From Acidobacteriota bacterium (GTDB lineage: Bacteria; Acidobacteriota; UBA4820; DSQY01): a stretch of DNA of 55,278 nucleotides. Numbering within the stretch: position 1 is the stretch's first letter; each line of letters opens with the position of its first letter. The position numbers and the translations under genes are program-made. The notes beneath the pieces were generated by a model that searched no databases, had not been told where the DNA came from, and saw only the letters and a program-made list of their open reading frames with translations. The DNA lies in the NCBI GenBank assembly GCA_040752915.1, contig JBFMHB010000011.1, positions 1 through 55,278 on the forward strand, in the 5' to 3' direction. Below, piece by piece: positions 44,050-54,643 of the stretch.

Positions 44050-44958
44050 CTACCTGTGAGTAAGGGCCTGTAGGTGCTTTGCAAGCGTGCTTTCAATTGC
44101 TGATTTCCCTCCAATAGTGTTGTCGTAGAACAGCGTGCGGAAACCGCTGATGTCGAAAGGTAGTCTGTCTCGCTTTCTGTCGCACAGCAAAATAGTAGCC
44201 TTACCCATGCCATGGGCGTAGCCAACTTCGTAGAATACGTTTGGATTGTTGGGAGTCACATCGGCGATTATTACAAAGCACTCTTGGATTGACCGCACGA
44301 TATCTTCTAGAATCTGGCCGGTCGAGTAAATGTCGGCAGCTCTAATGGCCTGCAGACCGTAGCTTTCGCATGTAGGCCGAATCACCTCATTGTATAGTGC
44401 GTTGAACTCGTCAGTGTATTGAATGACAATGAAAGCAGTTGGTTTTTGAGGACGAACAGTGATCCCGCGAACCAACATTTCCTTATTGCCCTGCATAAGC
44501 AGCGCAACCTGACAAGGTCTAATCTTGTAATACGCTGTGCAGACGATAACGCTATTTATGAGGAGATCAATTCGTGATCCATTGACTCGCACCTCTACAT
44601 CTATATCTGTATCAGCTGGAGGCCTTTCCCCGAAGCCAGCCCCCGCCAGAGGTTCCCACTTGTTATTGGAGAAAAGACTAATAACATATGCTGTAGCCCC
44701 AAACCCAATGCCGGCGTACACTTCTTCGCCGCTCCCGTGGTTGAACCCGACCATTAGCTGACTGTCGCGATCTTTCAATTTTACTTTGAATTGGACCGTA
44801 CCGCTTTCAAATTCGTAACTGGACTTCGCCAGGCAGATCGAGAACTGCCCCTTGTTCGGACCCTCCGTTATCTTTACAGGAATATATTTGAGACCCTCAG
44901 CGGTATGGGCTATCCTGCCCATAAGTGCGATCCAGTGGGTTTGCTTCTTTCGGCTCAT
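44050..44958 (-). CDS. Concanavalin-like + TIR/deoxyribosyltransferase-like (DrHyd) fusion protein (cassette gene)
   Basis: The 302-aa protein has two parts. Residues ~25-170 form a beta-sandwich like laminin-G/DUF1080 (YEFESGTVQFKVKLKD, VEVRVNGSRIDLLINSV, then GITVRP). Residues 174-302 form a small Rossmann-like domain with a DVTPNNPNVFYEVGYAHGMG motif at 233-252. That motif is typical of nucleoside 2-deoxyribosyltransferase/TIR-like effector domains. In other systems such domains cleave nucleotides in anti-phage defence; here this is inferred. Its lower GC and the flanking attC sites show it is a cassette. GAAGGAGGG precedes ATG 44958. Confidence 0.75.
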   Translation of the reverse strand: MSRKKQTHWIALMGRIAHTAEGLKYIPVKITEGPNKGQFSICLAKSSYEFESGTVQFKVKLKDRDSQLMVGFNHGSGEEVYAGIGFGATAYVISLFSNNKWEPLAGAGFGERPPADTDIDVEVRVNGSRIDLLINSVIVCTAYYKIRPCQVALLMQGNKEMLVRGITVRPQKPTAFIVIQYTDEFNALYNEVIRPTCESYGLQAIRAADIYSTGQILEDIVRSIQECFVIIADVTPNNPNVFYEVGYAHGMGKATILLCDRKRDRLPFDISGFRTLFYDNTIGGKSAIESTLAKHLQALTHR

Positions 44959-45929: not shown

Positions 45930-46111
45930 ACCTAACGCATATTAGGCCGACGAGTTAGGCCGTGGGGCGGCGGGTTAGCGCGATCAGCGGCGGCCTAGCA
46001 CAACCGGTTTCCGTTACCATCTTCACCGACAATCCCCTGCCAATCCTACCAAAAACTCGATACACGCGTCAGGCCGACGTGTTGGCCCGACGCGTTGGCC
46101 CGCTCAACTTG
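45930..46111 (-). other. Second attI copy (attI-2)
   Basis: This 182-bp region is nearly identical to attI-1 at 53098-53279. It has the same ACCTAAC...GTTAGGC inverted core at its left edge, the same central CGGCCTAGCACAACCGG, and the same run of core-like boxes (AGGCCGACGT, TTGGCCCGACGC, TTGGCCC) at its right edge. Differences are few (for example GTGGGG for GCAAGG, and CAGGC for TAGGC). Cassettes continue to its left, as they do from attI-1. Confidence 0.8.
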
Positions 46112-46448
46112 GTTGGTCTTCCTCGGGCGTCACCTCCGCCCGTCCCCCTCGTGTCTTGCAAGGTCCACGGCTTCGGGAAAGACCCCCCAGATCGTCGGCG
46201 GGGCTGAGACCCCCCCCCGCCCCAAGTGAGGACATGCGTGGAGATCATCGTCGTTGCCACTCGGAGCGGCCGGGCGATTCCTGGATTTTGGGGATGTCCT
46301 GGCCGCGCTCCAGAAGGTACGTGGCGAAGCCGTGCCGAAAGATGTGGGGCGTGACGCGCTTGGCGATCTTCGCGTTCCTCGCCCCACGGCCTACCGCCTT
46401 CTGGAGCACCGACCGTGCAGGGGATAGCGCACGAGACGGCCGCTCCGG
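46112..46448 (-). pseudogene. Broken 3' fragment of an integron integrase gene
   Basis: This segment aligns over its length with the 3' part of the full intI (53280-53632). In frame it still reads [18 protein letters not shown] and [20 protein letters not shown]. It then loses frame and meets a stop. The segment equivalent to TTMIYTHVL reads MISTHVL in another frame, so the catalytic Tyr is Ser. The 5' two thirds of the gene are absent; it is cut off exactly where the next gene's stop begins (46449). It cannot encode an active integrase. Confidence 0.88.
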
Positions 46449-50813: not shown

Positions 50814-51227
50814 TCACTCTTGCGTTTCAAAGCAGCCCCACTTGTTGCGATAGGGTTCGGCGTCACGCTTCTGGAACGATGGCCACCTCGAATTTGACAC
50901 GGGTTGTTTGTTGGTTATCTGGGACAGGGTCTTTGAAGGTACCACGTAGTAATCTGCGGACCCATCCTTGCGGAGATTCACAAACACGTAGATGTGGCTC
51001 GTAGAGGCTACGGCCTTCGCTTTGTTGCCCAAGAGCCAGAATGATGCAGGTCTACCGTTGGTCTTTACTTGGACCGAAAATGCTCGTTTGCACTCTTGGT
51101 CAGTTACAAGTAGATCGGCACCCATGGCGTTCCGAGAAGTGGTCGAAACAATATAGCCTTGTGCCACGAGCTCGGCTGCGACCAGGAACACGCCACGCAT
51201 ACCGGTTTGCTGACCTTTCGAAGCCAT
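50814..51227 (-). CDS. Small PD-(D/E)XK-like nuclease-fold protein (cassette gene)
   Basis: The 137-aa protein has the core of a PD-(D/E)XK endonuclease: helix [14 protein letters not shown] with Glu19, Asp38 in AMGADLLV, and Q53-V-K55 in FSVQVKT. The Q-x-K variant is common in Holliday-junction-resolvase-like and restriction-type folds. The rest holds aromatic strands ([17 protein letters not shown]). Restriction or DNA-repair function is inferred from fold only. Flanked by attC sites on both sides. Confidence 0.72.
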
Positions 51228-51979: not shown

Positions 51980-52097
51980 CCCTAACGCCAGCAGTCACCG
52001 GACCCAGACTTCATTTGCTAAGGGCTCCCGAGCAAGCCCACTTCGAAGCTGAACCTACCGCAGCGAGACTGGGTCCGTGTGCACTGCGTTGTTGGGC
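51980..52097 (-). repeat. attC site of the 52102 cassette
   Basis: A 118-bp site from CCCTAAC (51980) to GTTGGGC (52091-52097). CACCGGACCCAG pairs with CTGGGTCCGTGTG; the centre has TTCATTTGCTAAGGGCTCCC and CACTTCGAAGCTGAACC. It ends 4 nt before the stop of the 52102 gene. Confidence 0.9.
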
Positions 52098-52101
52098 GGC
52101 C

Positions 52102-53094
52102 CTACCGATATTTGTCGCCAGCCTGTTTGCAGAGTGAGATGCATTTCTGAACCCATGAGTCATACCAGTACCAGCTGCCCTGTACGTCGACGCCATAACC
52201 TTTCGCAAGATTGCGCGCGTCTTCAGACTTCCACATATCCGTATGTTCAGGACAAACGCGGAACTTCGTAAAGCCTGCCTTCTTGACTTCAGCGACAACA
52301 TCTTTTGCGCGAAACTTTGGACGCTCCACTTCCTTCTTAACCCAGTACTCTTTGTCGATCTGCTTCGCCAAGTCAGAGTCGGGATTTATGAATTCAACAA
52401 CCTTATCAGCCTGGCCGGGCTTGTTAACCAGTTTCCGCTTAAAAAGCATGCGAAATGAATATCTTTCGCTGTTGTACTCCTCATGCGTGAGTTTGCCATC
52501 GAATTCCGCAACATATGCTCTTAGCCGCGCAGGGATTTCGCACTCAGGCCTCTTGCCCGCGATTTGTTCTTCGGATAGCTCAACAAATTGAATCGAGTAA
52601 CTCAACTGATGATCTAAGCCGTACTTCGTACCGAACAGCGCCTTGATATAGTAATTGAAATTCATGGCGCAGGCTTGATAGCGCCCACTCAAGTAGCTGT
52701 CTAGCAGCCGTGTCATCTGGTGCTCGATTTCGTGCCGCAAGCCGATTAGGAAGCGCAAGTTGTTAGCGGTATTTGAGTCAATTGGGCTTTGGTCGGTGTT
52801 TAGGCATCTCTCGAGTTCCCAGTACTTGTAGGCCCCATGCTTCGTGTGGTCGAAGATCTTCCTCTTGGGGCCCTGTCGATAGTACCGGTATTCAATACCT
52901 TTTCCTCGATAGAATGCGTGCAATAGATAGGTCCAGGCGATGATCATAAGGACTGTGAATGTTTCGGACTTAAATTGGACCTGTGGATCATTGAACACGC
53001 GGATCGCAGACAAGGCCGCCTCGCGCGCCTTTGTCACGAGTTCTTTGCGCAACGACCCGATGGACCTGCTTCTCTTAGGCATATGCTGCCTCAT
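52102..53094 (-). CDS. DUF3644-like protein with a HEPN-type RX4H motif (first cassette behind attI-1)
   Basis: The 330-aa protein resembles DUF3644: helices FKSETFTVLMIIAWTYLLHAF (near 41-61), then FDHTKHGAYKYWELERCL and NNLRFLIGLRHEIEHQMTRL (111-130). The R120-HEIE-H125 motif is the RX4H catalytic pattern of HEPN ribonucleases, many of which act in toxin-antitoxin and anti-phage systems. The C-terminal third (VVAEVKKAGFTKFRVCPEH) is a small alpha/beta domain. As the cassette next to attI it is the most recently inserted and likely best expressed. ATG 53094; ATG 53082 is possible. Confidence 0.72.
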   Translation of the reverse strand: MRQHMPKRSRSIGSLRKELVTKAREAALSAIRVFNDPQVQFKSETFTVLMIIAWTYLLHAFYRGKGIEYRYYRQGPKRKIFDHTKHGAYKYWELERCLNTDQSPIDSNTANNLRFLIGLRHEIEHQMTRLLDSYLSGRYQACAMNFNYYIKALFGTKYGLDHQLSYSIQFVELSEEQIAGKRPECEIPARLRAYVAEFDGKLTHEEYNSERYSFRMLFKRKLVNKPGQADKVVEFINPDSDLAKQIDKEYWVKKEVERPKFRAKDVVAEVKKAGFTKFRVCPEHTDMWKSEDARNLAKGYGVDVQGSWYWYDSWVQKCISLCKQAGDKYR

Positions 53095-53097
53095 GCC

Positions 53098-53279
53098 GCC
53101 TAACGCATATTAGGCCGACGAGTTAGGCCGCAAGGCGGCGGGTTAGCGCGATCAGCGGCGGCCTAGCACAACCGGTTTCCGTTACCATCTTCACCGACAA
53201 TCCCCTGCCAATTTTACCATAAACTCGATACACGCGTTAGGCCGACGTGTTGGCCCGACGCGTTGGCCCGCTCAACTTG
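53098..53279 (-). other. Primary attI recombination site (attI-1)
   Basis: The region between intI and the first cassette. On the minus strand it ends in GCGTTAGGC, the GTTRRRY core at the cassette junction (53104-53098). It carries two clusters of three core-like boxes: near the junction, CGCTAACC, GGCCTAAC and GGCCTAAT; and at 53234-53275, GGCCAACGCGTC, GGCCAACACGTC and GGCCTAACGCGT, spaced 14 bp apart. Such box arrays suit integrase binding. The AT-rich middle (GAGTTTATGGTAAAAT) could hold the cassette promoter. Confidence 0.78.
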
Positions 53280-53280
53280 C

Positions 53281-54438
53281 TCAACGTGCACCCTTTTCCT
53301 CCCGCCTCCCCTTTCCCCCGGCGTGCTCGTCTTCGGAACGTTCCGCGGCCTCGGAAAGGACCCCGCTCAAGTCGTCGGCGGGGCTGACAACTCCCAGGCC
53401 GCCCCGGTTGAGGACGTGGGTGTAGATCATGGTGGTGGAAACGTCGGAATGCCCCAAAAGCTCCTGCACCGTGCGGATGTCCTGGCCGCGCTCCAGCAGG
53501 TGCGTGGCGAAGCAGTGGCGGAAGATGTGGGGAGTCACGTGCTTGGCGATCTTCGCCCTCCTCGCCGCGCGTCCTACCGCCTTCTGGAGCACCGACTCGT
53601 GCGCGTGGTAACGCACGAGTCGGCCGCTCCGGGGGTGCCGTGTGAGTGCCGAGGCGGGGAAGACCCAGTACCATCCCCATTCCCTGGCGGCGCTCGGGTA
53701 CTTGCGCCCGAGCGCTTCCGGCATGGCGACCCCCGTGCTGGCGGAGGCGAGGTCCCGCTCGTAGACCGCCCGCACCCTCTCCAGGTGCTCCTTCAGCTCG
53801 CCCCGGATCGCCGCGGGAAAAACCGTGATGCGGTCCTTGTTGCCCTTTCCCGCCCTCACGGTGATCTCACCCCGGTCGAAATCCAGGTCCTTCACCCTGA
53901 GGCTCAGCCCCTCCGTGAGCCTCAGGCCGGAACCGTACAGCAGAGCGGCCATGAGCCTGGGGACGCCCTCCATCTGGGCGAGGACCTGCTGGACTTCCCT
54001 GCGGCTCAGGACCACGGGGATCCTCGCGGGGCGCTTGGCGCGCACGACGCCTTCGAGCTGGCCGACCTCCCGGCCCAGCACCTCCCGGTAGAGGAAGAGC
54101 AGGGCCGCCAGGGCCTGGTTCTGCGTGGAGGCGCTGACGTTCCGCTTGCCGGCCAGGTAGGAGAGGAAGGTGTTGATCTCCCCCTCCCCCATTTCGAGCG
54201 GGTGGCGCTTGTTGAAGAAGAGGATGAACCGGCGGATCCACTGACAGTAGGTCTCCTCCGTCCGGTAACTGTAGTGGCGGGACCGGATGGCCTCGCGGAC
54301 GCAGTCCAGGAGCTTCTTTCCGCCATTGGGGGAGTAGGTGCCGGGGGGCTCCAGGACACGCGGCAGAGAGTCCGCGGCGGACTTTCGGGGGGCCTTTCGA
54401 GGCGGGTTGGTGACCGGGGGTTCTGCTATCTGTTTCAT
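53281..54438 (-). CDS. intI: Integron integrase (tyrosine recombinase)
   Basis: The 385-aa protein is an integron integrase. It has a SAM-like N-terminal core domain ([20 protein letters not shown]). The catalytic residues are all present: R173 (GLRLTE), H304/R307 (HIFRHC), H330 (GHSD) and Y339 (MIYTH). The insert specific to IntI ([23 protein letters not shown]) is clear. It recombines attI x attC and attC x attC. The N-terminal 40 residues are basic and unusual; ATG 54492 is an alternative start. Its 3' end, not its 5' end, faces the array, which is the reverse arrangement. Confidence 0.95.
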
Positions 54439-54643
54439 GGTGATTACGGCCCTTCTCTTTGGCCGCTTTTTACGAATCTTCCTTATTTCCATTTCGCCGG
54501 CCGCGCAGCTCCGCCTTATGCAGGCCGCGCCCGGAGCCGTCCCCCCCCGAACATCCGCTCCCGGTGCGCGTTCATGCGATGTAGTTTTATTGTACCCTCC
54601 CGGCCCGGCCGTTCAAGGGGAAAGGCGGAAGGCAAGAGGGGCA

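Follow-up and report, generated by a model that had tools for sequence, protein, structure and literature searches.

The first cassette of the integron array in the window (the whole 55,278-nucleotide stretch of DNA that was analysed) carries a gene whose sequence and predicted fold support its assignment to the DUF3644 / PDC-S19 family of HEPN proteins, and we consider it likely that its product is a stand-alone ribonuclease that is triggered by infection and acts by abortive infection. What the analysis shows is the family membership, the conserved residues, the predicted fold, the limits of the cassette and the defence-rich neighbourhoods of the relatives. In the mechanism that we infer, which comprises a dimer, RNase activity, a C-terminal trigger and an abortive outcome, the N-terminal four-helix HEPN domain would supply the predicted catalytic set R116, H121 and E40, and dimerisation would put two Rx4H motifs face to face to cut RNA. 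The protein would stay silent until phage infection acts via its middle and C-terminal region; host or phage RNA would then be degraded, growth halted and the spread of the phage blocked. The abortive outcome is suggested by the defence neighbourhoods of the relatives and by other HEPN defence proteins.

The minus-strand open reading frame 52102..53094 is open as described in the initial annotation and gives 330 amino acids from its first ATG, with RHEIEH at residues 120-125 exactly where it had been reported. Because homologues begin at a second in-frame ATG, at 53082, which a GAGG motif precedes by 6 nt, the protein probably starts there and has 326 amino acids (52102..53082, minus strand). 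Residues are numbered from this ATG, so that R120 and H125 of the longer version become R116 and H121. GC content amounts to 49% in the gene and 65% in the window, and of 59 other genomes of the phylum that were searched, only one holds a DUF3644 protein, which is distant from ours, the other 58 having none. The low GC content and near-absence from the phylum are consistent with transfer. Several relatives within the same family do, by contrast, have the integrase, with identities of 61-71%. The genome itself has a second, distant DUF3644 protein (L002 1492-2454, contig C21), with 20% identity and its Rx4H in the form RDTSIH, whose gene has an N6-methylase-like NPPF gene on one side and a ParA-like gene on the other.

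The resemblance to DUF3644 that had been noted earlier was borne out by Pfam DUF3644 (PF12358), which matches residues 18-200 of 330 (E=1.3e-53; 181.7 bits, with the curated cut-off at 27.6) across nearly the entire 183-position model. The PADLOC family PDC-S19 (model PDLC04948) matches over the full length (E=9e-152, 503 bits). An NCBIfam search with the protein returned no match, and PDB sequence searches with the protein or its profile as query returned no relative. DUF3644 was placed in the HEPN superfamily by Anantharaman et al. (2013; PMC3710099), who also found that many AbiJ-NTD2 sequences had wrongly been put in Pfam DUF3644. Because of this contamination, the HEPN features were tested directly. 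According to the same study, helix 3 of HEPN RNases ends with the motif, helix 2 carries an acidic residue, and an insert separates helices 2 and 3 (PMC3710099).

The Rx4H motif by itself was rejected as evidence for HEPN, since it is expected by chance: the protein contains three matches (R74, R116 and R275), and 49% of its shuffled versions contain at least one. The claim that HEPN RNases need only this motif was therefore too strong. Of the three, only the R116/H121 pair is unchanged in all 56 homologues, whose identities are 16-76%, so that the conservation of arginine and histidine proposed as a check was found for both residues. The sole invariant residues of this alignment are N31, E40, W50, N108, R116, H121 and N141. 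R116 and H121 are also kept in an overlapping set of 18 sequences that includes plasmid and prophage members and the paralogue from the same genome. The predicted RNase catalytic motif R116-x4-H121 (52720..52737, minus strand) is thus accompanied by an invariant acidic residue, Glu40 (52963..52965, minus strand), near the start of helix 2 (38-60), as expected of the RNase branch of HEPN (PMC3710099). Catalysis has been lost in some HEPN families (PMC3710099), and the protein might accordingly bind RNA or regulate rather than cut. We regard this as very unlikely, because the arginine, the histidine and the helix-2 glutamate are invariant across 56 divergent proteins and inactive HEPN lineages lose the motif.

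The fold was predicted with AlphaFold2 as a single chain from 56 sequences (mean pLDDT 81); this model replaced an earlier one from 21 sequences, and the HEPN layout is present in both. The predicted four-helix domain (residues 8-150; 52633..53061, minus strand) is formed by helices 8-31, 38-60, 103-120 and 132-150, with an insert between the second and third, and the motif falls where helix 3 ends. This motif had been said to lie in a helix, which is true of R116, situated inside predicted helix 3 near its end, but H121 directly follows the helix. In a Foldseek search of the PDB, the eight best matches were all HEPN proteins, with high probabilities (0.99 for 2hsb, with a TM score of 0.70 by target length, and 0.94 for MntA-HepT, 7bxo) but weak E-values, 0.26 at best. 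Because of these E-values, the fold evidence is supportive but not decisive by itself; together with the published HEPN status of DUF3644, it agrees with the fold initially proposed. These fold matches and the conserved motif are those of HEPN, and the profile match covers approximately the whole 183-position model rather than an N-terminal module of roughly 100 amino acids fused to AbiJ. Although many sequences of the AbiJ-NTD2 type have been misplaced in DUF3644 (PMC3710099), the probability that this protein is another such false member, and not HEPN, is close to nil. Parts of residues 160-180 and 210-255 were modelled poorly. The C-terminal domain (residues 259-320; 52123..52308, minus strand) consists of two helices, a beta hairpin and a helix in the model (block pLDDT about 82-91), and it matches no Pfam entry and no known family. 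It may be a sensor, and the order of its elements gives us the impression, but only the impression, of a winged helix.

The DUF3644 gene is the first cassette of the array, next to attI-1, as had been proposed. The window contains two copies of an intI 3′ end with attI (53099-53632 and 45931-46448), which are 82% identical. The near-identity of the attI copies extends to GCGTTAGG and stops at precisely that point, which marks the site of recombination and the 5′ boundary of the cassette at GCG^TTAGG. Thus, attI-1 (53098..53285, minus strand; aligned with the second attI at 45931-46125) ends at GCG^TTAGGC, and the whole cassette, with one gene-sized sense open reading frame, extends over 51986..53103 (minus strand). 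By direct reading, the 5′ end of the cassette, GTTAGGCGGC, is complementary at 9 of 10 positions to the 3′ R″ box GCCGCCCAAC that follows the stop codon; a 12-mer scan of the cassette ends gave 9 of 12 (p about 0.04). The attC that follows (51980..52097, minus strand; R″ GCCCAAC at 52091-52097 and R′ GTTAGGG at 51980-51986) is approximately 118 nt long and resembles the sites behind other cassettes of the array. At this attC, the plus strand, which is the bottom strand of the cassette and the one recombined by integron integrases, folds better than shuffled sequences (z -2.4). In plasmids, the cassette sequence had no match at the DNA level.

The gene upstream of the cassette is the integron integrase intI (53281..54492, minus strand; NCBIfam TIGR02249, E=5e-135), whose 3′ end adjoins attI. 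It is co-directional with the cassettes and runs towards attI and the array, opposite to the layout of class 1 integrons. Therefore, the class 1 rule by which a Pc located in intI makes the cassette in position 1 the best expressed cannot be assumed, and a promoter/terminator scan found no sigma-70-like promoter. The description of the cassette as the newest one fits its position, but the suggestion that it is the best expressed is unsupported.

The array (46.4-53.1 kb) is flanked by two intI-attI modules. The second (45931-46448, minus strand) is a decayed 3′ fragment of intI, with 60% protein identity and one in-frame TGA, followed by the near-identical attI. The third cassette encodes a protein (50814-51227, minus strand) with a weak PD-(D/E)XK-like match. 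A gene downstream of the DUF3644 homologue with 76% identity (locus L004) contains a GVDLLVSD...LQVKF stretch that looks similar to one in this third-cassette protein, but tblastn found no link between the two. The 302-amino-acid product of a further gene (44053-44958, minus strand), probably a cassette protein, resembles at its C-terminus the nucleoside deoxyribosyltransferase / CAP12-Pycsar TIR domains in a sub-threshold match; it may be another defence effector of the array.

Integron cassettes often carry toxin-antitoxin pairs, and the initial annotation had proposed a role in defence or in a toxin-antitoxin system. The protein could thus be a toxin that stabilises the array, like HEPN/MNT or other toxin-antitoxin cassettes of integrons; its closest solved folds include the HepT of MntA-HepT, and HEPN cassettes have been proposed as stress toxins (PMC3710099). 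However, a type II system of the HEPN/MNT kind has an adjacent antitoxin gene, and in this cassette no antitoxin open reading frame was recognised beside the one gene-sized sense frame. Moreover, the solo homologues on plasmids, in prophages and in genomes share no common neighbour, and our protein has 326 amino acids and an extra C-terminal domain, compared with roughly 130 amino acids for HepT. Because no antitoxin gene is present, we consider a toxin-antitoxin role improbable, whereas the BREX, type I restriction-modification (R-M), prophage and plasmid neighbourhoods of the relatives uphold the defence part of the proposal.

The homologues in BREX and type I R-M operons have approximately 50% identity to the cassette protein. 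In the BREX locus L011, the gene order is PglX, a 431-amino-acid gene, DUF3644, PglZ and BrxL, and BLAST found the same BREX gene families in several other loci; in the type I R-M loci L010 and L018, the DUF3644 gene lies between HsdS and HsdR. The homologues at 66-76%, outside such operons, occur in prophages, in a cassette or alone. In Streptococcus phage Javan254, the DUF3644 gene is flanked by a cI-like repressor and an integrase, and in Staphylococcus phage S-CoN_Ph25 by regulator genes and an integrase; further copies lie beside portal or Mu-like structural genes of phages, and others on plasmids. Two copies are broken by stops or frameshifts (Legionella tunisiensis, L020 6001-6968; a Helicobacteraceae MAG, L023 498-1486). 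Apart from two genes common to L009 and L017, shared neighbours occur only inside the BREX group and inside the type I R-M group, and no conserved partner or antitoxin was found for the solo copies on plasmids, in prophages and in genomes. The search for integron ends around the other relatives was convincing only for the 70% homologue of a gammaproteobacterial MAG (L006), a cassette whose ends are complementary at 12 of 12 positions, with a canonical attC nearby; L004 has attI-like repeats upstream, but its ends do not qualify as complementary (7 of 12 positions, p 0.36).

The 431-amino-acid protein of the BREX loci (L011 4709-6004, with equivalents in L008, L012-L014, L016 and L017) has no Pfam or PADLOC match, and in most of these loci the end of its gene and the start of the DUF3644 gene overlap by 4 nt. 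It is a possible partner or inhibitor, and because of this overlap some members of the family may need a partner that is absent from our cassette. The embedded homologues and the HEPN back-up effectors described for BREX (PMC12839542) also raise the possibility that the cassette protein is a suicide effector tied to another system of the cell, either BREX or type I R-M, and fires once that system has been beaten; alone in a cassette, it would then be dormant or dependent on the systems of its host. The paralogue of the same genome does adjoin an N6-methylase-like gene. However, our gene lies between attI and attC rather than in such an operon, its homologues at 66-76% lie outside these operons as well, and self-sufficient genes are favoured in integrons, because these shuttle genes one at a time from host to host. 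Dependence on such a system is therefore unlikely in our judgement, if less so than a toxin-antitoxin role, and a self-sufficient ribonuclease remains our preferred reading. A broader proposal, which we hold only tentatively, is that these proteins are portable, antitoxin-less HEPN ribonucleases with an infection sensor of their own at the C-terminus. Inside operons of BREX or type I R-M they would be built-in suicide effectors; in integrons, which would carry them from phylum to phylum, they would work as autonomous anti-phage cassettes.

The assignment of DUF3644 to HEPN and the proposal of HEPN cassettes in integrons both date from 2013, and PADLOC already lists PDC-S19 as a candidate for defence. 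Here, a high-GC bacterium has a candidate one-gene RNase defence in the first cassette of its integron, with a 70% homologue that is itself a cassette in a gammaproteobacterial MAG. The integron defence genes of Kieffer et al. and Darracq et al. reportedly come mainly from clinical mobile integrons and Vibrio. DUF3644 recurs in BREX and R-M operons, plasmids and prophages, although we found no published experiment on any DUF3644 protein and the family is named in one of 5.39 million open-access texts. Storage of anti-phage genes in integrons was demonstrated recently (Kieffer et al. and Darracq et al., as cited in PMC13092281).

Among known systems, PDC-S19 matches over the full length but is listed by PADLOC as a candidate defence system only, and our literature search found no paper naming it. 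The EC042_2821 family of HEPN proteins (Anantharaman et al., 2013; PMC3710099) overlaps DUF3644 and thus shares its profile family, and consists of Rx4H HEPN proteins in R-M operons. These proteins have wHTH, REase or zinc-ribbon domains, whereas ours has no recognisable extra nuclease domain and is a solitary integron cassette. The HEPN protein of PDB entry 3jrt also comes from an integron cassette but is listed as a separate HEPN family (PMC3710099), and it was not among the matches listed in our sequence and fold searches. MntA-HepT has the same fold in its catalytic domain, but our cassette lacks the MNT antitoxin gene, and its protein is larger, with the extra C-terminal domain. DS-11 is another single-protein HEPN defence (PMC13092281). 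Tha of phage 80alpha is a single-gene HEPN anti-phage RNase demonstrated by experiment: it is activated by phage tail proteins and degrades rRNA, and the H270A mutation abolishes defence (PMC11087260). Homology to Tha was rejected, with an hhalign probability of 2% and the HEPN domain at the opposite end, C-terminal in Tha (residues 184-296) and N-terminal in our protein; an antisense inhibitor such as ith was not recognised in the cassette. Nevertheless, Tha is also an Rx4H HEPN protein of about 300 amino acids encoded by one gene, and it lies between an integrase and a repressor, as do the DUF3644 copies of Staphylococcus and Streptococcus phages. This precedent demonstrates that a lone HEPN protein of similar size can act as an infection-triggered RNase.
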